Shown: in pieces, positions 20,710 through 34,077 of the stretch
Layout of the letters: every line of letters starts with the position of its first letter
Position numbering within the stretch: position 1 is the stretch's first letter
From: a virus
Reading direction: 5' to 3' (one strand)
DNA: 36,011 bases
Virus record (IMG/VR): IMGVR_UViG_3300023296_000673
Coordinates: 1-36,011 of that record
Notes under the pieces: generated by a model
The model's input: the letters and a program-made list of their open reading frames with translations, nothing else
Database searches by the model: none
What the model was told of the DNA's origin: nothing
Translations under genes and position numbers: made by a program

Positions 20710-21192
20710 CTAGTTAATGTTTTTGCCATAACTATCCGTTAGTTTATGACACTCATGACAGAGCGTAACTCCATTGTCCAAATCCCACAACTTATCACAA
20801 TCTTCTGCTTCATATAATGTTTTAATCTTATATTCCTTTAGTATAAGTGCAAAAGATTTCATGTGATGTGCTGTGAGTTTCAATCCTTTAGTATTGCATG
20901 TTTTGCATACCCAGTTATCTCTTTCGTATATGGATGTCCTCCATTCTATATATTTAGTACAAGACCTAATCTTCTTTTGAAGTTTAGTTTTATATCCAGT
21001 ACCCTTATTCCATGGTATCGATCCTGTTTTTGTTTTCCTAATCTTTTGTTTTGTTTCTTCAGAATGTTTCATTCCTACCCTAGCTATCTGTGAGCATTCT
21101 GGCGAACAAAATTTTCTTTTGTTCCAAATTCCGATAGTACAGTTGTTTTGTCTTTCGTAGATTTCTCCACATAAAATACAAGTTTTGTTCAT
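20710..21192 (-). CDS. HNH homing endonuclease, free-standing
   Basis: I chose the ATG at 21192 (MNKTCILCGEIYERQ), giving 160 residues; an upstream start at 21246 would add only non-conserved residues. The N-terminus is a zinc-ribbon-like segment (CILC...KFCSPEC). A NUMOD3-type DNA-binding repeat follows (KHSEETKQKIRKTKTG). The HNH nuclease part is YERDNWVCKTCNTKGLKLTAHHM with a downstream LDNGVTLCHECHKL. HNH enzymes nick or cut DNA at the metal-bound His. The gene lies between the MCP stop (21298) and the beta-helix gene. I could not find intron core elements around it, so it is likely a free-standing homing gene. Confidence 0.8.
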   Translation of the reverse strand: MNKTCILCGEIYERQNNCTIGIWNKRKFCSPECSQIARVGMKHSEETKQKIRKTKTGSIPWNKGTGYKTKLQKKIRSCTKYIEWRTSIYERDNWVCKTCNTKGLKLTAHHMKSFALILKEYKIKTLYEAEDCDKLWDLDNGVTLCHECHKLTDSYGKNIN

Positions 21193-21226
21193 ACAATTAG
21201 TTAGATTAATTATAGCTAATATAGGC

Positions 21227-21253
21227 TGGGGGACTGATCTAACCAATCCCCCA
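21227..21253. other. GC-rich hairpin downstream of the MCP gene
   Basis: TGGGGGA at 21227-21233 pairs perfectly with TCCCCCA at 21247-21253 around a 13-base loop. It lies 45 bases past the MCP stop and upstream of the HNH gene, in an otherwise AT-rich gap. There is no T-run on the minus strand after it, so it is not a classical terminator. It could stabilise the 3' end of MCP mRNA or insulate the endonuclease gene. Confidence 0.5.
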
Positions 21254-21297
21254 CTTTCGTCTATCGAACCTATTCTTTATCTTATGCTAGATAAAAT

Positions 21298-24200
21298 CTA
21301 TTTGACAATATCTCTAAGGGCAGCCGATTTGTTCGGTGCCTTGTTGCATAAATTAGCATAGTAACGAAGCGTGGCATTCCAAGCAGGTGTCGTTGCACTT
21401 CTGTCTAGAATAGCACCATCTTCTTTCAAAAATGAGATAGGAGCTAAATCTTCAATTGATAAAGTTGAAGGGTCGATGAAGTAAGCTTCATCATATGGAG
21501 CGTCATAGTCAGCTACCATTGGTATCCCGTTAAAGTCTACCCCTTTGAACCCACCATTTAACTGCATGTCTCCGTTAGTATAACGTCTATCTGGAGTTAA
21601 AAGTTGTCCATAAGCTGATTGTACGTCCCATGAAGTAAGGATATATTTAGTATCACCTTTCTTCTGTGCTTCAATCCAAGTAGTATGAAGTAAAGCGTCT
21701 GTTAATGAACGTTGTGAAGTATTATCATTAACATATGACTGCCACCAAATGTAAGTAGATCTAGAAAGACCTTCTAAAGTGGTAAGATTAGCACCATCAT
21801 CAATAAGACCTTTAAGTCCCATTATTTCAGCGTCTTTGTTTGACTGTGTAGCCGTTTGTGCAATGTACACTGGGTCATTGTCAGCGATTGCTGCAACTCC
21901 AGCTGCTAATTCGAAAGTATCACCATCTGTGATTGAATCTACTGTTCCAATAGTTGAAGCTGTTGCTCCAAATCTTAAAACGTTTCCAATCTCGATATAA
22001 TCTGTAGGATTTTTTCCAACCATAGGGTTGTCTAATTCTACAGTAGTACCAGTTGAAGGGTCTGCATTTACTTTAGCAATTTCTCCAGTTCCCAAGTTGT
22101 TACTTCCTCTATTGAGGAGTGTTAGTCATTTCTGCTAACATCTTACAGTTGTTATTTCTGCAAGGTCGGACTATCGCTTCCTATCTCTAGGTTATCACAC
22201 TTAGTCTCTACAGCTGCACCATTATTTAATTTATTTCGGTATTTTGATTCTTTATAAATATGTTTTAGTTTTTTGCATTCTAAATACATTTCTTCTCGTT
22301 TGATTATTTCGCTATCAGTTAATGGTAATGCTCTGCCATCTTTTCCTTTTAACGTTTTGGTTAATCTATTTTGTAATCTAATAGCAATTTCTATTTGTGG
22401 TCTTTTATATTTGATAAATGGAAGGACTTCTTTAAGTACTTTTGCTGCTTTCTTATGTGTTATATTCCAGACATAAATATCTCTTTCTTTGTTCTTATAT
22501 TGAACACTACCTCCGAAGTTACCAGTTAACCAATCCATTATTGCTCCATCTTTTTGAGATATTGTTAATAGAATTGAATAACTAACATTTATTCTTCCTT
22601 CTAATCTAGGATTTCTTTTTGCTATCATTATACATCCTTCTCCATCTATAAAGCCAGCTAGATAAGCCAGTTTAATTGCTTTTGTTTGTTTCATATTTTA
22701 TTATATAAAACCGAAATAAATTGTAATGTGCTTGCTAGGGGTTGCCAATTTCAGGATTCCCCTTATTAGTGATAATTTTATTTGTGTGTTTTATAGGGCA
22801 CACGATGGAATCAGTAACCTGGTAAGAAGTCGTTTAATACCATACCCTTGACGTGATAACTGTCTCTGCATATCATTCTTAGCTCCATCATATTCTGATT
22901 CTAAAACGTTTACTAAGAACTCTTTTGATCTCTTTGAACCTTGTAAAACAACGTCTGTAAGAGAAATTTGATGAAAGTTATATTTCATCGGGATGTTAGC
23001 TTGTATATAAGCTTGCTGTCCAGCTGTAGGTAAAGTTAATGATTCAGATCCAGCTGCACTACCAGTGTTCGTTTAATATCTTAGCTTTATGTCTACATAA
23101 AGATGAGACTATATCTTCATCCAAGAACTTCTTTAATCCTTTTTGGATTTGTCTTGGAGACTAACATGTAGTCGTTGAGAATTTTTCTAATGAAATTTAT
23201 TCTAGCCATTTTCCTGTCTATCCTTAATTTTATTTTAAATTTTATAAAATCAAGTGTGTCGAAAAATAGTCTATACGTATTTTTACTAGTTTTGATTTTT
23301 GTTGGACCCCACGATTTAAGTTGCATTTTATTACACATTCTTGAAATATTGTTCATCATTATTTCAGAACCACTTAATCCGATTTGCCAGTTTAAACCTC
23401 TCCCAGTACCAGATACGTTGAAAACAACCCAACCATCACCATCCACCATTCCAGCAATAAATTCTTTTTTAATGCTTTCTTTCCCTTCTAAAATCCAAGT
23501 TGGTATTTTTGTTTTCTTTTCTGTTTGTATTGTTAAATATTCAAATAATTGCTTTTCGTATATGCGAATTGTGAATATATTTTTCTTGCCCCATCCAGTT
23601 GGTTTACTTTCGTAAATAGATCCAGTTTTGTTTATCAGATTATCTATACATTTATTTGTATAATTTATATAATCCATATCAATTGAAGATAGTTTAAAAA
23701 CATATCCTCTCTCATGTTTAAAACATGATCCATCTGAAAGGTAAACTCCTGTTAAATATGCAAGATATTTGTTTTCTTTCATAGAAATCTTTTCTGCTGA
23801 TTGTCCAATCCTTTCGATTTTTACACTTTGGTACGAAAGGCTCTAAGGAGTTTCCAGCATATAGTTAGTTAAATTGTCAAAGAAATTACTTTCTAAGGGT
23901 CGCAACACATTTACGACCATAATGTACTGTAATCATTTTACCACCACCACCTGTAGCTGAAGCGCCTGCGACTGAAACTGCTCCAGTATCATGAGCAACG
24001 TTTTTTAATACATTCATGAACAAAACATTCTTTGTGAATACTTGCTCGTGAACAACGCCGTCATATACTCTCCATGTATATCCAATACCTTTCGGTATAA
24101 GTCGGACTATCCCTTCACCCTCTGCCGAGGGGCAATATTATAGTCTCTGAACATCTCTTATGATTTTTTTTACTCTGTCAATGTCTTTATATATGTCACA

Positions 24201-24964
24201 TTCCCAGAAACGCATTACTTGTATATTAGCATTCTTTAGTTCCTTGTTAACTTCATGGTCTTTATTCGTTCCATGAGGATAGTTATGCCAGTAATCTCCA
24301 TCTGCATATATTGCTATATGGTGGTCTGGCAAATATATATCTGCTACAGTTATCCCAAGTAATGGATACTGTGTCATATATTTTATTCCAAGTTCTTCTA
24401 CTATATCTTCTAATATTATTTCTATTTTTGTTCTATTTGTATTGTCTGCTACTTTTAAGCAACAAGCAATTCCACCTTTTATACAACCTTTTATAAATTT
24501 TTGGTACTGTTCTTCATCGTAGTAATTCTTCATTACTAATCCTTTATTCCATGCTTTCTGAACTCCAGTTTTATTTTTATTCCATGGTTCTCTACCATTG
24601 TTTATCGTATGCCCCTTCTCGAAGGGCTTCCCAGTTGATTTTTGACCTTTTAATTTTTTACTTATTGAATCTTTATGGTCTTGAGATGGATGCCAATTTT
24701 CTTTTCTCCATTCTCTAAAACATTTTTGTGAACAAAATTTTCTTTTAGTGTCTTGTGTCTTGTAATCTCTATTACAATGAACACACCTTTTAATTGTCAT
24801 AAGATTTTGATGCAGATTGTCCAATCTTTAACGTTTTTACACGAGTCAGTGTAGTTAAAGCTCTAAGGATGTTCCCGCAATTTAATTGATTTTACACGTA
24901 GATTACTCTACGAGGCGACAAGATTTATCGCAGCTCCAGCCATGTTTGTTACGGACTGTGCCAT
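21298..24964 (-). CDS. Major capsid protein (HK97 fold), four exons split by three group I introns
   Basis: Exons on the minus strand are 24964-24918, 24081-23904, 23069-22839 and 22092-21298. Joined, they give 1251 bases and 416 residues with no stop. Each proposed 5' exon ends in T and each intron in G, as group I splicing needs. The product starts MAQSVTNMAGAAINLV and carries HEQVFTKNVLF, then KMITVHYGRK with LTLPTAGQQAYIQANIPMKY, then NDMQRQLSRQGYGGTGEIA. This order and these motifs (YGR, LPTAG, RQ-x-YG-x-GTG) are those of HK97-fold MCPs. It sits after portal and scaffold, as expected. Exon 1 encodes only 15 residues plus two bases. The exon 1/2 junction is the least certain; the other two are phase 0. 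Confidence 0.82.
22093..22838 (-). mobile_element. Group I intron 3 of the MCP gene
   Basis: The 5' splice site is placed after GGGTATGGT (22839) and the 3' site after the G at 22093, joining RQGYG to GTGEIAK. Near its 3' end the intron has a P7/S-type element, GCGATAGTCCGACC, at about 22161-22174. An upstream GAGACTAAGTGTG may be the R strand. Its P3-P4 region (CCTGAAATTGGCAACCCC) differs from introns 1 and 2, so it may belong to another subgroup. The LAGLIDADG ORF runs through the S element to a stop at 22152. Confidence 0.75.
22152..22694 (-). CDS. LAGLIDADG homing endonuclease of MCP intron 3 (single motif)
   Basis: This 180-residue protein starts MKQTKAIKLAYLAGFIDGEG. A single LAGLIDADG motif (YLAGFIDGEGCIMI) is followed by a typical core: YSILLTISQKDGAIMDWL, GGSVQYKNKERDIYVW and KVLKEVLPFIKYKR. 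One motif and this length suggest it works as a homodimer like I-CreI. The last roughly 25 residues (GAAVETKCDNLEIGSDSPTL) are encoded by the intron's own P7/S core, so the reading frame overlaps the ribozyme. It probably cuts intronless MCP genes at the exon 3/4 junction. Confidence 0.85.
   Translation of the reverse strand: MKQTKAIKLAYLAGFIDGEGCIMIAKRNPRLEGRINVSYSILLTISQKDGAIMDWLTGNFGGSVQYKNKERDIYVWNITHKKAAKVLKEVLPFIKYKRPQIEIAIRLQNRLTKTLKGKDGRALPLTDSEIIKREEMYLECKKLKHIYKESKYRNKLNNGAAVETKCDNLEIGSDSPTLQK
23070..23903 (-). mobile_element. Group I intron 2 of the MCP gene
   Basis: The 5' site after GTGTT (23904) and the 3' site after G at 23070 join GRKCV to NTGSAAG in phase 0. Core elements on the minus strand are a P-type GCTGGAAACTCCTTAGAGC, a Q-type ATTGGACAATCAGCAG and an S-type AAGATATAGTCTCATC. 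The 5' end forms a hairpin with a GTAA loop. An alternative 5' site nine bases later, after ACCCTT at 23895, is also in frame. The endonuclease stop codon abuts the S element. Confidence 0.8.
23117..23782 (-). CDS. LAGLIDADG homing endonuclease of MCP intron 2 (two motifs)
   Basis: This 221-residue protein starts MKENKYLAYLTGVYLSDGSC, which contains motif 1. Motif 2 lies at about residues 110-120 (EFIAGMVDGDGWVVF). Two motifs in one chain indicate a monomeric enzyme. The central segments (KKIPTWILEGKESIKKEF-like spacer, LNWQIGLSGSEIMMNNI) match the inter-domain layout of the family. The ORF starts about 20 bases after the intron's Q element and stops next to its S element, the usual peripheral-loop placement. 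It probably targets the intronless exon 2/3 junction. Confidence 0.85.
   Translation of the reverse strand: MKENKYLAYLTGVYLSDGSCFKHERGYVFKLSSIDMDYINYTNKCIDNLINKTGSIYESKPTGWGKKNIFTIRIYEKQLFEYLTIQTEKKTKIPTWILEGKESIKKEFIAGMVDGDGWVVFNVSGTGRGLNWQIGLSGSEIMMNNISRMCNKMQLKSWGPTKIKTSKNTYRLFFDTLDFIKFKIKLRIDRKMARINFIRKILNDYMLVSKTNPKRIKEVLG
24082..24917 (-). mobile_element. Group I intron 1 of the MCP gene
   Basis: The intron starts 47 bases after the MCP ATG (exon ends CTTGT at 24918) and ends at the G at 24082. Core elements on the minus strand are a P-type AATTGCGGGAAC at 24871-24882 followed by ATCCTTAGAGC, a Q-type ATTGGACAATCTGCA and an S-type AAGGGATAGTCC. A terminal ATACC-GAAA-GGTAT hairpin resembles P9 with a GNRA loop. 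A perfect 5' hairpin has the arms CGTAGA and TCTACG around GTAA. The core resembles intron 2 closely. The exact 5' site is uncertain by a few bases. Confidence 0.8.
24138..24800 (-). CDS. Vsr-like (EDxHD type) homing endonuclease of MCP intron 1
   Basis: I chose the ATG at 24800 (MTIKRCVHCNRDYKTQ); the longer reading starts at a TTG. The protein has 220 residues. An N-terminal zinc ribbon (CVHC...KFCSQKC) is followed by NUMOD3-like basic repeats (DHKDSISKKLKGQKSTG and NNGREPWNKNKTG). The C-terminal nuclease reads IILEDIVEELGIKYMTQYPL, then VADIYLPDHHIAIYADGDYW, HNYPHGTNKDHEVNKELKNA and VMRFWECDIY. That is the Vsr/very-short-patch-repair fold seen in phage intron enzymes of the I-Bth0305I type. 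It probably cuts the intronless exon 1/2 junction. Confidence 0.85.
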   Translation of the reverse strand: MTIKRCVHCNRDYKTQDTKRKFCSQKCFREWRKENWHPSQDHKDSISKKLKGQKSTGKPFEKGHTINNGREPWNKNKTGVQKAWNKGLVMKNYYDEEQYQKFIKGCIKGGIACCLKVADNTNRTKIEIILEDIVEELGIKYMTQYPLLGITVADIYLPDHHIAIYADGDYWHNYPHGTNKDHEVNKELKNANIQVMRFWECDIYKDIDRVKKIIRDVQRL

Positions 24965-26149: not shown

Positions 26150-28006
26150 TTATTGATAATTTTCTTCTGCTGATATATGAGCATCGAATAGTTCCTGGTT
26201 CTGTTTGTAAACATCACCATTCTCTTTAATAAATGAAATGTGTAAATCTGTATGTTCAGGTGTCCATAAAACTTTAGGAGTTTCTGGTACCTGTTGTCCA
26301 GTTGACATTTGCATGTTTTCACTATCAGCGAGATCGGCTGTATCTTCTGGACCTTGTCCGTCTGATCTATGACTTTCTCTCTGCTTCATCATATCTTGTT
26401 TGAACTCTTCTGCTTTCTTTACTTCCATTCTATCTACTATGTCAGATATGTTAGAGAATTTAAACTGTTCTAATAATGTTTGTCCATCTATCAGTTTGGC
26501 TTCTGCTAATCTCATAGCCCATTCCTTTTTAGCATCTTCACTATATGCAATCTCTGGAACTATAGTAACTTTAATTTCATCGTTGCCATCAATTACCATT
26601 GCTCCTTCTGGTTCATTATTAGCTACTTTACCAACATATTTTATCTTCTGACCATCTTCAATTATTTCATCTGATGCTATTTGATAATCAGCTATTAATT
26701 CTAGTACAAAATTACCAACGTCTTGTAATAATAACTCAAGATTCTCTATCGGTTCTGCTACAGTTCCAGCATCTGCTGATTGTAGCGCCTCAATCCCTTT
26801 ACCAGATTGTAGAGAACCTGTTGCTTTACCAAGTGATGCTTCTCTGACTCCGCCTAGTTCCTCAATCCAACCTTCAAGATTCTGCATAAACACAAATGGT
26901 GTTGTTGGTAGTGGTTGTAAGTCCATCTGCTTAGGTGGAACCTGTCCTTTATAGTAAATCTTTTCTGCTCCTTTATCTGTTATCATTGAAACATCAACAC
27001 CTTTCTTAATCAAGTATTTGCCAGCAAGCATTCTCTGAATGTATGCCTCTACTTGTGAAGCTGTTTTGTCTAATGACTTATTAATAGAAATAAGATCTTT
27101 TATCCATGGTGTGTTAAAGATCGACTCCTCATTACGTTCTGGGTTATAATTGAATATTGGGTATCTTCTATATTTAGGGTTATATACTCTTGCAACATTA
27201 TTTCCTACAACAGTGATAACTCTAACTTTCACTTCATCTTTTTCAATCCATTTTAACCATAGTTCTTTAACAACTGCTGTTTCTAAGTCCTTGTTAGTTT
27301 TATTAGATTCTCTGTTATATTTTTCAAGTTCTAATATATTCTTATAATCTGCAGCAGCCTCCCTGTTATCTGAAATCTTCTCATCTTTAATAGTATATTC
27401 CTTATTTCCTTTAATTGATTCAACTGGCTTTACAAATGTCTTAAAAATGTATCTACAACTTGGGATTGTTGATGCATATGGATCTGGTAATATATCATAT
27501 GAACTGTCTATCCAAAAATCTATAACGTCTTTACCATCTCTTTTAACATATCCGCCTTCTAAGAACCCAGCAGAATATTTAAAAGCATTAACAATCAAAT
27601 CCGTCAAGCTTTGTTTAATTTTTCTTGTCCTATATATATTCTGTAGAAGTTTATTCTTCTTAGATGCTTCTGCATATGCTTCGTCAGTGCTATCATTAGG
27701 ATGGACTTCCCATCTTGGTTGACTTCTTTTAACGAAGTTTTTAATACCACGAAGTTGTGACCTAATTTTGTTTATTGTCCGTCTGACTTCTCCTTCTACA
27801 AGAGGAACTGTTTGTACTCTATTTAGAGTCTTGTTATAAACAATCCAATGGTCGCCACGAACAAACCTATCACTTATATACCAGTCTTTATGCTGCTTCA
27901 GATACATAGCTGAAGTAGATGTATAAAGACTATCTATAAATTTAATAACTTCTGGATTACGTCCAGTTTCTATTTTTTGTTTTCTTAAATATTCTAGATT
28001 AATCAT
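26150..28006 (-). CDS. Portal protein
   Basis: This 618-residue protein has the portal layout. The N-terminal part reads DWYISDRFVRGDHWIVYNK and RTINKIRSQLRGIKNFVKRS. A central clip/stem region has YPIFNYNPERNEESIFNTPW and ISINKSLDKTASQVEAYIQR. The diagnostic GGVREASLGKATGSLQSGKG segment follows, then a helical EPIENLELLLQDVGNFVLEL stretch. Twelve copies form the ring through which DNA is packaged. The position downstream of terminase and upstream of scaffold and MCP is standard. It overlaps the upstream ORF by eight bases, so translation is probably coupled. Confidence 0.85.
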   Translation of the reverse strand: MINLEYLRKQKIETGRNPEVIKFIDSLYTSTSAMYLKQHKDWYISDRFVRGDHWIVYNKTLNRVQTVPLVEGEVRRTINKIRSQLRGIKNFVKRSQPRWEVHPNDSTDEAYAEASKKNKLLQNIYRTRKIKQSLTDLIVNAFKYSAGFLEGGYVKRDGKDVIDFWIDSSYDILPDPYASTIPSCRYIFKTFVKPVESIKGNKEYTIKDEKISDNREAAADYKNILELEKYNRESNKTNKDLETAVVKELWLKWIEKDEVKVRVITVVGNNVARVYNPKYRRYPIFNYNPERNEESIFNTPWIKDLISINKSLDKTASQVEAYIQRMLAGKYLIKKGVDVSMITDKGAEKIYYKGQVPPKQMDLQPLPTTPFVFMQNLEGWIEELGGVREASLGKATGSLQSGKGIEALQSADAGTVAEPIENLELLLQDVGNFVLELIADYQIASDEIIEDGQKIKYVGKVANNEPEGAMVIDGNDEIKVTIVPEIAYSEDAKKEWAMRLAEAKLIDGQTLLEQFKFSNISDIVDRMEVKKAEEFKQDMMKQRESHRSDGQGPEDTADLADSENMQMSTGQQVPETPKVLWTPEHTDLHISFIKENGDVYKQNQELFDAHISAEENYQ

Positions 28007-28259
28007 TCTCTTTATATTTTTCAGTAATCGCCTGTTCTAGCAAGTAGTACAACTCTGCAGTCAACGGGTGAAACACTGATATTTTATTTTGTTCAGTTTC
28101 TTTTATTGGAAATACTAATCTCATCCTAGTTTCCTCTCCTAGTCTTGTGAATATTGCTATATTCCCCAAGAATAAAGAGTCCTCAATAATGCAAGATGCA
28201 AATCCAACGAGCCCTTTGTTTGGTACTACTTTTTTAATTTTAACTTTCGATATTTTCAT
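27999..28259 (-). CDS. Hypothetical protein, 86 residues
   Basis: This protein starts MKISKVKIKKVVPNKGLVGF and continues ASCIIEDSLFLGNIAIFTRL, then RMRLVFPIKETEQN. The pattern of short strands with a central Gly/Leu/Phe-rich region and a C-terminal helix (LYYLLEQAITEKYKEND) resembles SpoVG-like small regulatory proteins, but the match is weak. It overlaps both neighbours by 8-20 bases, showing a tightly packed operon between groEL and portal. Confidence 0.5.
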   Translation of the reverse strand: MKISKVKIKKVVPNKGLVGFASCIIEDSLFLGNIAIFTRLGEETRMRLVFPIKETEQNKISVFHPLTAELYYLLEQAITEKYKEND

Positions 28260-28509
28260 GCGTTTTCTTTAAGTGCTCTATTAATAATCTCTCATCGACA
28301 GCGTCTACTTCTTCAATTTCATCTTGTACTATTTCTTCTTCTTCGTTGTCTTCTTGAATTGTTTCTACATATTCCTCCATATTCTTTGAGAGAAATATTT
28401 TAGCCATTTCTTGTATAGTTTCTTTTCTATCTTCTGAACTCTTCTTTATTGTATAAAATACTAATCCTAGAGAACTTAATATACTAATTGCTAATACTGC
28501 TTCTATCAT
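28240..28509 (-). CDS. Small membrane-anchored acidic protein
   Basis: This 89-residue protein has one hydrophobic N-terminal segment (MIEAVLAISILSSLGLVFYT). A charged region follows, ending in Glu/Asp-rich sequence (QEDNEEEEIVQDEIEEVDAV). The topology suggests a membrane anchor with a cytoplasmic acidic tail. The ATG at 28509 lies inside the groEL gene (26-base overlap), so it is probably translationally coupled to the chaperonin. Function unknown. Confidence 0.5.
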   Translation of the reverse strand: MIEAVLAISILSSLGLVFYTIKKSSEDRKETIQEMAKIFLSKNMEEYVETIQEDNEEEEIVQDEIEEVDAVDERLLIEHLKKTHENIES

Positions 28510-30067
28510 TTGGCTTTAGTGCGATTGCGACTGAGGATGTCAAAAGTGTTCCTGCTGTTGCAACTGCGTTAGATAATTCTTTTTTAACACATCTTACTGG
28601 GTCTATAACTCCACTCTCATATAAATCTTCATATTTATTAGTTAGTGCATTATAACCTATTCCATCTTCTTTAATCTTTGCGATAATTGCATCTGCTGGT
28701 AAACCTGAATTCTCCATGATCTGTTTACATGGAAGCTCCATCGATGCTACTACAATTTTCCATCCAGCTTTTTGTTCTTCGCTTATATCATTATCCATTA
28801 ACATTGATGAAGATGCTTTCAGCAATGCTGTTCCTCCACCTTCAATAATGCCATCTTCTACAGCAGATTTGGTAGAATTTAATGCGTCTTCTATTCTATA
28901 CTTCTTTTCAGTCTGTTCTGTCTCTGATGAACCACCTACTTTAATATTAGCAATAGATCCATTTAATCTGCCTAAACGTTTTTTTAATTGTTCTATTATG
29001 AATAAATCTTTATATTTGGATATTAATGCTTTCACTTCATCTACTCTTGTTTTTATATCTCCATTAGCTCCAGTAAATATAGTAGAATCTCTTGTTACAA
29101 TTACATTCTCTGCTATTCCACAATCAGATAGTTTACCATCTTTCAACTTTGTAGACTCCTCTTCTCCAAGAACAGTTGCTCCTGTTAATGCAGCCAAGTC
29201 ATAAAATAAGTCTCTTTGGTAATCTCCAAATGAAGGCATACTCACTGGTATACATGTGAACTTACCAAGTAAATGATTCTGTGTAAGAAATGCTAATGCT
29301 GGTCCTTCTACTGTCCCACCTACTAGAATAAATTCTCTTTTACCTGCTTCAAGTAGGCTTTGTAGAATTTTAATTAATTGACTCTCCATATTAATCTTAT
29401 CTGTAGTAAGAATAATTATTGGGTTAGCCATTTCTGCTGAAAGTCTTTTTCTATTTGTTATGAACATATGTGATGAATATCCTCTATCCAATTTTGTTCC
29501 TTTAACATATTCAACTTCTGTTTCCATTGAGTTAGAATTTGTTACAGTAACAATACCATTAGTTCCTGTTTCCTCTATAACATCTGCAATCATTTGACCA
29601 ATTTCTGGATCATTGTTTGCAGAGATTGTTGCAATCTGCACTCTCTCATCTATAGAGGTTACTTCTTTTTTATTTCCATCTATAATATCGATAGCCTGTA
29701 TTAATGCTTCATCCATACCCCTTTTAATAAGTATAGGATTCATTCCAGCTGTAATATATTTGTGTCCTTCGTTTGCAATTCCTCTTAGTAGAACTACTGT
29801 TGAAGTTGTTCCATCTCCTGCTTCTCTATTTGTGTTTTCTGCTGCCTCTCTTGCCATCATAGCCCCCATACTTTGGAATTTATCTTCTAATAAGATTTGC
29901 TGACTAACCGTTACGCCGTCCTTTGTTATTGTCGGATAAAGACTCTCCTCGAATATCACAGTATTTCCTCTTGGACCTAAAGTTGTTGCGACAGCATCTG
30001 CGACGATATTAACTCCTTCTAAAATCTTTACTCTTGCGTCGTTGTTAAATTTTATTTCTTTATACAT
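28484..30067 (-). CDS. groEL: Phage-encoded GroEL-type chaperonin (group I, Hsp60)
   Basis: The 527-residue product spans the whole group I chaperonin. The equatorial domain has VATTLGPRGNTVIFEESLYP and the ATPase signature NTNREAGDGTTSTVVLLRGI, whose Asp corresponds to GroEL Asp87. The ISANNDPEIGQMIADVI and GIVTV segments follow, then an apical domain with KGTKLDRGYSSHMFIT. The intermediate-domain signature KYRIEDALNSTKSAVEDGII carries the Asp equivalent to GroEL Asp398, followed by GGGTALLKAS. It lacks the Gly-Gly-Met C-terminal tail of E. coli GroEL and ends LKPNDRSSISN. In cells GroEL rings fold proteins with a GroES lid; a GroES-like gene lies 0.4 kb upstream in the same operon. Its place between terminase and portal suggests it folds capsid or tail proteins. 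Confidence 0.93.
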   Translation of the reverse strand: MYKEIKFNNDARVKILEGVNIVADAVATTLGPRGNTVIFEESLYPTITKDGVTVSQQILLEDKFQSMGAMMAREAAENTNREAGDGTTSTVVLLRGIANEGHKYITAGMNPILIKRGMDEALIQAIDIIDGNKKEVTSIDERVQIATISANNDPEIGQMIADVIEETGTNGIVTVTNSNSMETEVEYVKGTKLDRGYSSHMFITNRKRLSAEMANPIIILTTDKINMESQLIKILQSLLEAGKREFILVGGTVEGPALAFLTQNHLLGKFTCIPVSMPSFGDYQRDLFYDLAALTGATVLGEEESTKLKDGKLSDCGIAENVIVTRDSTIFTGANGDIKTRVDEVKALISKYKDLFIIEQLKKRLGRLNGSIANIKVGGSSETEQTEKKYRIEDALNSTKSAVEDGIIEGGGTALLKASSSMLMDNDISEEQKAGWKIVVASMELPCKQIMENSGLPADAIIAKIKEDGIGYNALTNKYEDLYESGVIDPVRCVKKELSNAVATAGTLLTSSVAIALKPNDRSSISN

Positions 30068-30070
30068 ATT

Positions 30071-30256
30071 TTATTCTCTGTGAAAATAGAATCTGACTTG
30101 ATTCTCATCTTCCTTCTTACCATTTGTTAATTCATTTGTACTAATTGCTAATATTCTTTGTCCTATTAATAAACACCCAATCATTCTAATCATTAAAAAT
30201 ATTATTTGATATGATTCGATATCTGGATTAAAGAAATACATTTTCTTAACATTCAT
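30071..30256 (-). CDS. 61-residue hydrophobic protein, possible paralogue of 32725-32910
   Basis: This protein starts MNVKKMYFFNPDIESYQIIF and continues LMIRMIGCLLIGQRILAIST, then a polar tail. The same layout occurs in the 61-residue ORF between the terminase halves: a basic start, YFF, a hydrophobic stretch with an IR motif, and G-x-x-I before a polar end. One membrane-dipping helix is likely. It is the gene directly upstream of groEL. Function unknown. Confidence 0.55.
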   Translation of the reverse strand: MNVKKMYFFNPDIESYQIIFLMIRMIGCLLIGQRILAISTNELTNGKKEDENQVRFYFHRE

Positions 30257-30258
30257 AT

Positions 30259-30438
30259 TTATTTTATTAATTCTCTTTCTCCTTCTAATTCACCATTAGT
30301 ATAATACTTAACTGTTCCATTTTCAAATAACTGTCCTATGTTTACCCATTCACCATCTATAAGATGCCATGCTTGTATTCCTACTTTAGTTTTTGAAAAG
30401 ATTGTTTTCATTGGTGGATATACCTTTTTATTCTTCAT
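30259..30438 (-). CDS. 59-residue hypothetical protein
   Basis: I read this frame by hand from ATG 30438 to TAA 30259-30261: MKNKKVYPPMKTIFSKTKVG, then IQAWHLIDGEWVNIGQLFEN and a C-terminus GELEGERELIK. It exactly fills the gap between the GroES-like gene and the small hydrophobic protein, with 2-4 base spacings. That fits a real gene in this packed operon. It looks like a short beta-rich domain. No family recognised. Confidence 0.6.
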   Translation of the reverse strand: MKNKKVYPPMKTIFSKTKVGIQAWHLIDGEWVNIGQLFENGTVKYYTNGELEGERELIK

Positions 30439-30442
30439 AGTT

Positions 30443-30694
30443 TTATTCTCGATAGGAGCATATTCCTAGAACATCATCCTTATCTAATACATTATAATCT
30501 TCACCTTGTAAGGTGAACGTTAGGAGCGAATATCGACCGAAGATGACTGTGTCTCCTTTGCCTTCTCCTTCTAATACTTCCCCTGTTATTAAACCCTTGT
30601 CTCCATCGTTATCCTCTACTGCCATATCTACAGACAGTTGAGAATTCTTATGTTTTTTAATTAAAAGTAAATTACTTTTTAGTTTTATCTCCAT
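30443..30694 (-). CDS. groES: GroES-like co-chaperonin
   Basis: This 83-residue protein has the GroES beta-barrel pattern: KLKSNLLLIKK at the start in place of L-x-D-R-V-L-V-K, then a mobile-loop region (about residues 17-33), then LITGEVLEGEGKGDTVIFGR and YSLLTFTLQGEDYNVLDKDD ending VLGI. This matches the family's GEVxxxG...GDxVxFGxYxxxxxxxxGExYxxxxxxDxLxx core. GroES caps GroEL rings; T4 gp31 is a phage analogue. It is a little shorter than the usual 95-100 residues, and the mobile loop lacks the usual hydrophobic tripeptide in an obvious form. It overlaps the upstream ORF by 23 bases. Confidence 0.82.
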   Translation of the reverse strand: MEIKLKSNLLLIKKHKNSQLSVDMAVEDNDGDKGLITGEVLEGEGKGDTVIFGRYSLLTFTLQGEDYNVLDKDDVLGICSYRE

Positions 30695-30872
30695 CTTTTT
30701 CTTCTTTTAATTCTTTAACTTCTTCCTCTGGTTTCATATCCTTAACTTTCATTATAGGAATAACTTCACCATTTGGTAATACAGCGTTAGCTGCGTAAAT
30801 GTTTAGTTCTAACTCATTACAAGTTTCTTCTAAATCCTTTTGTAACTTTTCTTTTCTTTCTTCAAATGTCAT
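30672..30872 (-). CDS. Small charged protein upstream of groES
   Basis: This 66-residue protein has an N-terminal helix (MTFEERKEKLQKDLEETCNE), a short hydrophobic middle (LNIYAANAVLPNGEVIPIMK) and a charged end (EEEVKELKEEKDGDKTKK). Its end overlaps the groES start by 23 bases, so the two are probably co-translated. I do not recognise a family. An accessory role with the chaperonin is possible but not shown. Confidence 0.5.
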   Translation of the reverse strand: MTFEERKEKLQKDLEETCNELELNIYAANAVLPNGEVIPIMKVKDMKPEEEVKELKEEKDGDKTKK

Positions 30873-31205: not shown

Positions 31206-32723
31206 TTAGTCGACATCAAACCCTGATAGGATTTTAGGTCGTATTAATTGATCTAAATCTCTTTGAACTTTTGTTCTTGCTGTAGGCGCTTCTTCTGGTT
31301 TATTTGGTCTGGTCATTATCAAATATCTAAGTGCGTCCATAGAATTGTGAACTATAATTCCATTACAAGAAAAGTTATTAACCCTATCTACGTGCATATT
31401 ATATACTGGTATAACCTCACCTTTCTCTATCTTCTTGATTTTATGATTCCACTCTTTTTTGTTTCTTGAGAAACCGATTGCTCTGCATCCCTCTTCACAA
31501 TATTTCTTCTTTCTATATTTATTAACTCTGTGTGCGAACATACTATCTCCATTATTTAGGTTTATTCTTGTATGCCCGTGTGAGTCAATCGTTTGATAAA
31601 CTGGCATTAAGCTATCTCCTGCTTTTAATTCTCCAGCTAATCTATATTCTCCGCTCCTAATCATTATAGGATGGTCATATGTACAAACTATTTCTGAATC
31701 GTCATCTAGGGTTATTTTTAATGTCTCAGCTACTTTTGTCTGCCTAACGTTGTCATATCTATTGACTTGGACTCTTTTTAGTTCATTGCTATATGAATAA
31801 ACATATCCACTTTTGCCAACAAGGTCTTTTATTTTAAAATCTCCGTTAACTGTATTTATAATTGAATCTCCAGCTAGGCAATGATCATCCTTCTTTACTG
31901 GTTTCTCTGGTTCATTATTCTGTCTATCTGTCGCTTCTGTATTCTCTTTATAACGATAGTGTTGTAATTCCCAACAGAGTTTAGGACACTTATCTTTAAA
32001 TATATATAAGTGTGAGTTTAGTAAACCGTCTATCCTCATATATTCCCTTACTCTTGTTACTCCAGCTACAAAGTCGTTCGTTGCTGGTTCGAATTCCCAT
32101 CCATTGTCATCGAAATCCTCTATGACTGAATATGGTACTTCTTCTCCTTCTATTATTTTTGTTCTATTCTTGCTTGCTGTCGATGGATCGATGACTTTCA
32201 CTTGAAATGTGTTGTCTGCTAGAATTTTCTTTTGTCCTATTGATAAGTTGTCTCTATACCCAGAAATTAAATAACCAAATTTGTCGAACATTTCCTTACT
32301 TGCTACACTTGGTATCGCTGGGTTATAATACTCATCTATTATATAAACTTTCTTATCTCTTGTTATTGCTCCTACTAGAGCACAGTTAGGGTTCCTCTGT
32401 CCAAAGTCCATCCCTATAAATAATTCTACATCTCCTAGTTCGAATGAATCGACTAGGTGTATGCTTGGTTTAAAGTCACAAAACTCTGGACCATATACTA
32501 ATTGACCAGCTTTAGTTGTGAAGTCAATTTCGTATTCTTTATTCCAAACTGCTTTAGGTGAACCTTCTCTCTCTGCTTCATACCATTTTGCTCCTTCAGT
32601 AGTCTTTGGATTTTTAGATTCGTCAGCCGTGTAGTGGAGCATCAATACGTGAAAACCATTCTTTGGATTCTTCCAGAATTTAATTCCTTCTGATATTTCT
32701 GGTTTGTCTGTGTCGTCGTACAT
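31206..32723 (-). CDS. terL: Large terminase, C-terminal nuclease half, with intein
   Basis: The 505-residue precursor contains the RNase H-like nuclease domain of TerL. Before it come the linker segments GIKFWKNPKNGFHVLMLHYT and AVWNKEYEIDF. The first catalytic Asp is in LFIGMDFGQRNPN, the second in VKVIDPSTASK, and the third in SMDALRYLIM after splicing. Residues 282-460 are an intein. Excised, the protein would be 326 residues. The nuclease cuts concatemeric DNA at the start and end of packaging. Its ATPase partner domain is encoded separately at 32915-33613, so the enzyme is split. The two halves add up to about 558 residues, a normal TerL length, so no domain is missing. Confidence 0.85.
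   Translation of the reverse strand: MYDDTDKPEISEGIKFWKNPKNGFHVLMLHYTADESKNPKTTEGAKWYEAEREGSPKAVWNKEYEIDFTTKAGQLVYGPEFCDFKPSIHLVDSFELGDVELFIGMDFGQRNPNCALVGAITRDKKVYIIDEYYNPAIPSVASKEMFDKFGYLISGYRDNLSIGQKKILADNTFQVKVIDPSTASKNRTKIIEGEEVPYSVIEDFDDNGWEFEPATNDFVAGVTRVREYMRIDGLLNSHLYIFKDKCPKLCWELQHYRYKENTEATDRQNNEPEKPVKKDDHCLAGDSIINTVNGDFKIKDLVGKSGYVYSYSNELKRVQVNRYDNVRQTKVAETLKITLDDDSEIVCTYDHPIMIRSGEYRLAGELKAGDSLMPVYQTIDSHGHTRINLNNGDSMFAHRVNKYRKKKYCEEGCRAIGFSRNKKEWNHKIKKIEKGEVIPVYNMHVDRVNNFSCNGIIVHNSMDALRYLIMTRPNKPEEAPTARTKVQRDLDQLIRPKILSGFDVD
31344..31880 (-). mobile_element. Intein in the terminase nuclease domain
   Basis: The intein covers residues 282-460. Block A is CLAGDSIINTVNGDFKIKDL. Block B is IVCTYDHPIMI, with the T-x-x-H splicing motif. 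Block F is IPVYNMHVDRVNNF and block G is GIIVHN, followed by Ser461 as the +1 residue. It interrupts DDH-SMDALRY, two residues before a catalytic Asp. At 179 residues it is small. The middle (SHGHTRINLN, MFAHRV, KYCEEGCRAIGF) may be what remains of an HNH endonuclease, but I see no complete one, so it may have lost homing activity. Confidence 0.85.
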
Positions 32724-32724
32724 A

Positions 32725-32910
32725 CTATTCTTGCTTATTACTGTTTCCTATATAAATGTTTAATTGTGCCTCCTTGTTTTCTCCATGATTTGTTACATAT
32801 ACTATTTTCCTCCCTGTCGCTAGTTTAAATATTATCCTTATAAATAGTAATATCATCTTTAAATTACTTGTCTGATAATATTTAAAGAAATATAATCTAT
32901 TCTTTTCCAT
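32725..32910 (-). CDS. 61-residue hydrophobic protein separating the terminase halves
   Basis: This protein starts MEKNRLYFFKYYQTSNLKMI and continues LLFIRIIFKLATGRKIVYVT, then a polar tail. It fills nearly all of the 191 bases between the ATPase and nuclease genes. It resembles the 61-residue ORF at 30071-30256 in length and layout (basic start, YFF, hydrophobic IR stretch, Gly-Arg/Gln-x-Ile), which suggests paralogy at the limit of detection. No intron core elements were seen around it. Function unknown. Confidence 0.5.
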   Translation of the reverse strand: MEKNRLYFFKYYQTSNLKMILLFIRIIFKLATGRKIVYVTNHGENKEAQLNIYIGNSNKQE

Positions 32911-32914
32911 ATCT

Positions 32915-33613
32915 TTACATTTTTAATAAATCGAAGACTGCTTCCTCAAACCAAGTGTTGTCGTTTGCTGTGCTGACGCATGTCAGTCTTCCACCAGAAC
33001 TGAGTGTTGGCTTTAGTGCTGTAAAAGCACTTGCCATTTCTGGTTGAAAAGCAGACTCATCTGAAAGCATTCCAGATAATGTATGCATCCTAACAACATC
33101 TCCACCTTCAGGAACTCCCCTTATTTCTGACTTGATGTCAGGAAAGGTTAGTAATGAATATACGTGATTTCCTTGATTCTGTGGGTTACAGTTCAATTTG
33201 TGGAATTCTCCACGTTTATAATATCTTTTAAGGAACGATGGTTCATTGTCCCAAATAAGCTTTGCTCTTTTAACCAAATCATTAGCATCATCTGCTTTCT
33301 TTGATTGAAAGAATGTTAGCTTACCATAATGGAACTGTGTATCCCATAAGTATAATCCTGTAAAGACCCAACTCATCATCATTTGACGAGATTTAGGAAA
33401 TAATAGGATTTTATGTTCTAACCATTTATCTACAATAATTCTTAGATATTCTTTGTCAGGAAAGGGCTTTTGTGGATTCTTGGGGTCGTGGACATCTAAT
33501 GTGAATGCCCAGTTTGTTAGCCAATAATACGGGTCTTCATGACACTTCGCCCATTCTAAGTTCCTAAGTTCAGGACTCTTAGCTAATTTTTGTAAATATT
33601 CTACACTTTTCAT
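32915..33613 (-). CDS. terL: Large terminase, N-terminal ATPase half
   Basis: This 232-residue protein carries the packaging ATPase domain. A deviant Walker A (FPKSRQMMMSW, about residues 72-82) has the K-S-R-Q-M pattern of many TerL proteins. Walker B is GMLSDESAF, with Asp185-Glu186. The coupling motif is TCVSTAN at about 211-217. It ends soon after (FEEAVFDLLKM), before the nuclease domain, which is encoded separately at 31206-32723. ATP hydrolysis here drives DNA into the prohead. The start shares a base with the terS stop (TAATG), so the two genes are translationally coupled. Confidence 0.85.
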   Translation of the reverse strand: MKSVEYLQKLAKSPELRNLEWAKCHEDPYYWLTNWAFTLDVHDPKNPQKPFPDKEYLRIIVDKWLEHKILLFPKSRQMMMSWVFTGLYLWDTQFHYGKLTFFQSKKADDANDLVKRAKLIWDNEPSFLKRYYKRGEFHKLNCNPQNQGNHVYSLLTFPDIKSEIRGVPEGGDVVRMHTLSGMLSDESAFQPEMASAFTALKPTLSSGGRLTCVSTANDNTWFEEAVFDLLKM

Positions 33614-34077
33614 TATAACTCATCTATTAGATCTTTCTCCAACATATCTATCTCCTCTTTCGATAGTTTGGTTGGGTCAATATCTGATAAATCTTCTTTA
33701 TTTGAAATCTCTATTTCCTTTCTTTCCTTGAAATCGCCAGTAAGCTTACCAAATAAGGTAATAGCGTCCTTACGAGCAGTATAATCTGGTATATCATCAC
33801 CATTCTTGTCTGGTTTCATTGCTAGCAGCATTTCCTTTAATGCTCTTACAATTGCACCTTTATCTATTCCTGCCATTTGCCCTAGTATTCTGAAGCTTCC
33901 TTCGACTACTTCTATTTCATCTATGATTCTTTGGTCTCGTAATAGTTTATATGCTTCTGATGCACATATTTGTTTATTAGTTTGTCCATATGCAGTTCCA
34001 TATGCCTTTGTCCCATTGTATCCGTTCTTGACATACTCCTCTGAGAAGTCTGCCATGTTCTTTGTTATCTTTTTCAT
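33613..34077 (-). CDS. terS: Small terminase subunit
   Basis: This 154-residue protein shows the Terminase_2-type layout. The N-terminal DNA-binding region has FSEEYVKNGYNGTKAYGTAY followed by ASEAYKLLRDQRIIDEI, the typical N-G-x-N-G-T-K-A-Y and small-residue helix-turn-helix pattern. A central helical oligomerisation region follows, and then a C-terminal tail with DPTKLSKEEIDMLEKDLIDE. TerS recognises the packaging site and loads TerL. It is the first gene of the structural operon, next to a repeat-rich non-coding region that may hold that site. Confidence 0.8.
   Translation of the reverse strand: MKKITKNMADFSEEYVKNGYNGTKAYGTAYGQTNKQICASEAYKLLRDQRIIDEIEVVEGSFRILGQMAGIDKGAIVRALKEMLLAMKPDKNGDDIPDYTARKDAITLFGKLTGDFKERKEIEISNKEDLSDIDPTKLSKEEIDMLEKDLIDEL

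Follow-up and report, generated by a model that had tools for sequence, protein, structure and literature searches.

The window, by which we mean the whole analysed stretch of 36,011 bases, is the IMG/VR virus record IMGVR_UViG_3300023296_000673; its GroEL region is 100% identical to that of a 62,977-base contig from the same collection. The genes around the chaperonin locus are transcribed from the minus strand, beginning with the terminase small subunit (33613..34077) and the terminase large subunit, which is encoded by two ORFs, one for the ATPase part (32915..33613; PHROG match) and one for the intein-interrupted nuclease part (31206..32723; Pfam and PHROG matches). These are followed by two small ORFs and the ORF of a GroES-like lid of 83 amino acids (30443..30694), recognized by the Cpn10 matches of its family and by its model fold. 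A small ORF 5' of the lid gene (30672..30872) overlaps the GroES start and is kept across the lineage. Further along the transcript order lie two small ORFs of 59 (30259..30438) and 61 amino acids (30071..30256), the GroEL gene (28484..30067), a conserved small ORF with a hydrophobic N-terminus which overlaps the GroEL end (28240..28509), an ORF for a SpoVG-like protein conserved across the lineage (27999..28259; Pfam SpoVG, E 3.6e-10), and the portal gene (26150..28006), whose product matches annotated portals weakly and is conserved in the relatives. The preliminary description had placed the chaperonin genes between terminase and portal, and this placement was borne out (terminase 31206-34077, portal 26150-28006). 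It had also taken the span 28484-30694 as an operon of GroEL and GroES; both genes are real, but the two small ORFs between them had not been mentioned.

In many relatives nothing is found at the position of the 59-amino-acid ORF. The 61-amino-acid ORF between lid and barrel looks by eye similar to another ORF of 61 amino acids at 32725-32910, located in the gap between the two terminase halves, and the two possibly represent a small mobile or duplicated unit. In several diverse members, the ATPase and nuclease parts of the terminase large subunit are encoded by separate ORFs (window, 31206-33613; L063, 2470-4397; L028, 307-2086; L029, 2617-4532). In L063 an array of 16 tRNA genes (1-1600) lies upstream of the terminase genes. 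The major capsid gene of the window is present in pieces among ORFs for LAGLIDADG, HNH/NUMOD3 and Vsr-like endonucleases (20710-24824), with the C-terminal part of the protein encoded at 21298..22095 on the minus strand. Group I introns were considered as the cause of this split, but no Rfam match was obtained.

The GroEL ORF encodes a group I chaperonin of 527 amino acids, as indicated by Pfam, PHROG and structure matches. It matched Cpn60_TCP1 (PF00118) with an E-value of 1.8e-57 and 195.6 bits at a cut-off of 34.3 as well as PHROG 5725 'chaperonin groEL' (E 3.8e-128), and is 37-43% identical to solved group I GroELs. An AF2 model based on an alignment of 28 rows reached a pLDDT of 87, and its best Foldseek matches were all group I chaperonins, with E-values down to 5e-52. 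Profile and model thus agree on the Cpn60 sequence family and the three-domain fold. The E. coli residues T30, G32, P33, D52, D87, G88, T89, D398 and D495 are retained in the window; across the clade, D52, D398 and D495 were found in 28/28 sequences and D87 in 27/28. Hence, the protein is a full-length GroEL with its ATPase residues, as originally described. The GGM tail, which had been noted as missing, is absent from all 28 clade members, unlike most of the Patescibacteria GroELs inspected, which carry GGM-type tails. Three members contain inteins of about 300-340 amino acids with a LAGLIDADG endonuclease that split GroEL between GDG and TT of the ATPase motif (L064, 3062-5581; L031, 1622-4165; L007, 2-2260). 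The N-terminus of these inteins, PQPLYSKVLTPxG, is without Cys, in which they presumably resemble class 3 inteins.

On its own, the window GroES scored 20.4 bits with Pfam Cpn10, just under the cut-off of 21.1, and matched the PHROG GroES family with an E-value of 2.9e-4. Cpn10 was matched by 29/29 members of the GroES family, with a best E-value of 1.5e-10, and the family profile found solved GroES chains at E-values of 2e-8 to 1e-5. The AF2 model of the lid has a pLDDT of 79, with values below 50 only at residues 20-25, which form the mobile loop. All top rows of the Foldseek and VIA searches with this model were Cpn10 or gp31 (Z up to 8.5; for T4 gp31, Z 8.3 over 79 residues), and the Cpn10 beta-barrel with its flexible mobile loop is present. 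The failure to model as a GroES fold, which had been named as a possible refutation, thus did not occur, and the assignment as a GroES-like lid stands. The mobile loop is indeed atypical. The GGIVL motif is lost, and an invariant D plus [IM]-x-[VITL] replaces GG-IVL, so that the hydrophobic triplet is retained in modified form. The roof loop is missing from the lid, the alignment showing no counterpart for about 10-17 residues of the E. coli protein. T4 gp31 is a functional lid which is likewise without roof loops and serves the T4 capsid protein, which the lidded chamber accommodates (PMC6318259). Hence, the roof loop is not strictly defining for GroES/Cpn10 proteins.

Alignments of GroEL, GroES and the portal were used to scan viral contigs, which resulted in about 40 related contigs. 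Those that include the start of GroEL and 600 or more bases of sequence before it were assessable (37 contigs, about 31 distinct phages; near copies are L017/L018, L019/L020/L021, L026/L027, L030/L034 and L057/L061). GroES was located just 5' of GroEL, with the terminase nuclease ORF upstream, in 37/37 assessable contigs, and the portal gene followed downstream of GroEL wherever the sequence covers this region. In these 37 contigs, GroES and GroEL overlap by 2 bases at one extreme and are 1,063 bases apart at the other, and the gap sometimes holds small ORFs. Sampling by the portal, which left out one contig starting too close to the portal gene, found GroEL directly upstream in 29/29 assessable contigs; a contig related only very distantly by its portal (25% identity) has no GroEL. 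Where dS could be estimated, dN/dS of GroEL and GroES was about 0.06-0.24, mostly 0.07-0.18, showing that purifying selection acts on both. The gene order kept in all 37 contigs together with the low dN/dS argues that the pairing is not due to chance, and the chaperonin unit described within the head-gene module of the window is a conserved two-gene unit throughout these relatives. Among GenBank phages, no close portal (best 23% identity) and no GroEL with more than 39% identity were found. The window represents an uncultured phage family in which the GroES-GroEL pair is fixed at one place in the genome.

The viral GroELs form a single clade with 100/100 support. Its long stem measures 1.1-1.4 changes per site, and the clade stands separate from GroELs of the E. 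coli and Bacilli types and from those of other phages. Branching within one host genus, which the preliminary description had considered as the sign of a recent capture, did not occur. A tree in which the clade was constrained to group with five other phage GroELs was rejected (p-AU 0.003), which speaks against one common origin with them. In a quick tree the closest cellular rows were Patescibacteria-type GroELs (SH-aLRT 89); the same part was unresolved in the careful tree. These rows belong to small genomes, mostly of 0.5-1.2 Mb, and their assignment to the Patescibacteria is inferred from this size. Since other bacterial phyla were thinly sampled and similarity had guided part of the choice of Patescibacteria rows, a patescibacterial source of the viral clade is only a lead. 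An ancient cellular source is likely.

In E. coli, the IVL triplet of GroES contacts GroEL residues L234, L237 and V264, and the exchange N265A blocks GroES binding (PMC3514286). In the groove of the viral clade, hydrophobic residues occupy position 234 in 26/28 and position 237 in 28/28 sequences, and N265 is retained in all 28. Q264 was found in 27/28 and F261 in 28/28, and residue 203 is non-aromatic, whereas in 48/48 cellular GroELs position 264 is V/L/I, position 261 is T and position 203 is Y or F. The cellular GroES proteins adjoining the compared GroELs showed the usual G-I-[ILV] loop in all cases inspected. Both the lid loop and the GroEL groove are altered in a way that is clade-specific and internally conserved. 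At the level of sequence, the simplest reading of these reciprocal contact changes is a self-matched lid-barrel pair. The preliminary description had suspected such a pair, and it was right in so far as loop and groove have both changed as expected. An extra co-evolution signal was not obtained: lid and barrel distances correlated with r 0.45, and allowing for portal distances left a partial r of only 0.12, so that co-evolution beyond the shared genome history is unsupported.

Residues of the GroEL cycle are affected as well. In E. coli, the taut state becomes less stable when the D83-K327 and R197-E386 bridges are both removed, and E461-R452 is an inter-ring bridge (PMC5941174). In the viral clade a D83-K327 bridge is possible in 0/28 members (46/48 cellular sequences), the inter-ring E461-R452 bridge in 0/28 (32/48 cellular), and R197-E386 in 7/28 (32/48 cellular). 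The lost salt bridges suggest a looser allosteric lock and a weaker ring-ring contact.

Hints to the hosts came from the genetic code. The GroEL genes of L028 (2524-4080), L029 (5003-6568) and L030 (1875-3440; copy L034) contain 24-27 in-frame TGA codons and no in-frame TAA or TAG. Per gene, 19-20 of the TGA codons fall on alignment columns in which glycine is commonest, and 15-16 on columns with at least 90% glycine. Hence, these three distinct members read TGA as glycine, corresponding to code 25. This is the code of the Absconditabacteria and Gracilibacteria (PMC10746230, PMC13059738), which are thus implied as hosts. The code-25 members constitute one subclade, and the standard code applies to the window and the remaining members. 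Dual-code-compatible phages have been described from code-25 hosts (PMC10746230), so hosts of this kind could also be shared by the standard-code members. In the window, 0/11 lineage genes end in TGA; this avoidance is a weak sign of dual-code compatibility, given that TGA accounts for 24/239 stops in the standard-code relatives.

A portal scan of genome contigs detected members of the lineage in only two bins. The bin of L064 is a small-genome bacterium with GroELs of its own, and no other lineage members were found in 379 further genomes of its phylum. The bin of L063 is a Mycoplasmatota MAG in which the only GroEL found was that of the phage. Neither GroEL nor GroES occurs in the eight first-listed relatives of this MAG, and among 61 relatives about 60% are without both. 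In the Mycoplasmatota-related group around G001 (61 genomes), GroEL and GroES were present or absent together. Tetranucleotide profiles and tRNAs gave no confirmation of the L063 bin as a host.

From these data we consider it probable that the lineage encodes a self-contained GroEL-GroES pair, the partners of which are mutually adapted and fold phage proteins, probably those of the head. Barrel and lid would be made from one head-gene operon and would have a higher affinity for each other than for host partners, and the roofless lid may work like T4 gp31. Loss of D83-K327 and E461-R452 would loosen the coupling within and between rings. The chaperonin would act in the late phase of infection, folding or protecting phage proteins, with portal, capsid and terminase as the most likely candidate clients. 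The capsid protein of the clade, with about 415-418 amino acids, is smaller than T4 gp23, and thus no oversize client is evident. The place of the genes alone is no proof of a head client, since unrelated phages put such pairs elsewhere in the genome.

Other explanations have to be weighed against a mutually adapted pair. The two proteins may form no exclusive pair, the lid mainly recruiting host GroEL as gp31 does and the viral GroEL using host GroES or both. Host partners are widespread, since 343/380 genomes of the phylum of the L064 bin have their own GroEL, every host GroEL inspected had a GroES nearby, and CPR bacteria reportedly keep both proteins (PMC12641178). However, the host GroES loops all follow the standard G-I-[ILV] pattern, the viral groove carries Q264/F261, and the viral genes were never found apart in the 37 contigs, which makes such mixed use unlikely. 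The same host genomes bear on the idea that the phages bring a chaperonin because their hosts lack one. It fits the Mycoplasmatota bin with its single phage GroEL and the many relatives of this bin without both genes. The link between this bin and the phage was not confirmed, however, and code-25 hosts are Patescibacteria, which reportedly keep GroEL/GroES (PMC12641178). With an own GroEL in the L064 bin and in most of its phylum, a missing host chaperonin is unsupported there as a general reason, and we regard it as quite improbable.

A lid-independent holdase or foldase like those of EL, OBP and AR9, with GroES as a remnant or in another role, would agree with the absence of GroEL-cycle salt bridges and of inter-ring E461-R452 in 28/28 as well as with the missing GGM tail. 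The chaperonin of EL, however, is 22% identical to GroEL (PMC7185714) and thus considerably more diverged than the viral GroEL, which moreover is far from AR9 and other jumbo-phage forms in the tree. In addition, N265, which is needed for GroES binding, is present throughout the clade, whereas two lid-less jumbo-phage forms have L at this position. Since GroES is also under purifying selection, action without a lid seems very unlikely. A recent capture of a host groES-groEL operon without special role is hardly credible. The patescibacterial neighbors in the quick tree could be taken in its favor, but it is ruled out by the fully supported long-stem clade, and the conservation in all 37 contigs and the clade-only substitutions speak against it too.

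The mutually adapted pair can be extended to an orthogonal virus-specific chaperonin, in which lid and barrel would have diverged together, would not mix with host partners and would follow a rewired allosteric cycle lacking the D83-K327 lock and the E461-R452 ring bridge, possibly with a single ring or loosely coupled rings under the roofless lid. We consider this extension possible but doubtful. If true, head assembly would be independent of the host chaperonin, which would aid spread of the lineage across hosts, including hosts in which TGA encodes glycine and perhaps hosts without GroEL. As the pair occurs in every assessable member of a lineage that comprises TGA-as-glycine phages, it also bears on how phages of Patescibacteria, of which hardly any are cultured, build heads in reduced cells.

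The preliminary description regarded phages with both partners as rare, which was not supported. According to the literature, GroES without GroEL occurs in many phages, the complete pair in some and GroEL without GroES in few (PMC7185714), and in our check of 18 GroEL-bearing phage records GroES was also present in 11, adjacent in five. Flavobacterium phages immuto and elemo and Bacteroides phage SJC03 have adjacent GroES and GroEL genes like the window, Cellulophaga phage Calle_1 has them nearly adjacent with one ORF between, and in Caudoviricetes cthkR962 (MW202566) the adjacent pair likewise lies just upstream of terminase and portal. The GroELs of these known phage pairs are at most 39% identical to the window GroEL, carry V/I/A/E at position 264 and do not share the Q264 and F261 groove of the clade. 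The lids of immuto and cthkR962 retain longer loops than the window lid.

The biochemically studied phage chaperonins in the cited literature are lid-only (T4 gp31) or barrel-only (EL, OBP, AR9). T4 gp31 and the window lid are both virus-encoded, roofless proteins of the GroES fold in a head-assembly context (PMC6318259). T4 uses the GroEL of its host, whereas in our lineage GroEL is also viral, and the mobile loop of the window lid is not longer than that of GroES, unlike that of gp31. EL gp146, OBP gp246 and AR9 gp228 are virus-encoded GroEL homologues with altered inter-ring and domain contacts, like the window GroEL. These chaperonins work without a lid and are about 22-25% identical to GroEL (PMC7185714, PMC9598537), as opposed to 37-43% for the window, and that of AR9 is distant from the viral clade in the tree. 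Their strong divergence and lack of a co-chaperonin are not found in our lineage, which has GroES in 37/37 contigs. With the GroEL-GroES systems of E. coli and Patescibacteria, the viral pair has fold, ATPase residues and groES-groEL order in common, and differs in groove, mobile loop, roof loop, tail and three salt bridges. Thus, phage GroEL/GroES pairs are already known as a class, and the viral clade is a distinct and strongly diverged variant of it. New are the lineage-wide fixation, the reciprocal contact changes, the lost salt bridges, the members reading TGA as glycine and the GroEL inteins between GDG and TT. As a compact natural pair, the lineage provides a test case for the evolution of lid-barrel specificity and inter-ring coupling.
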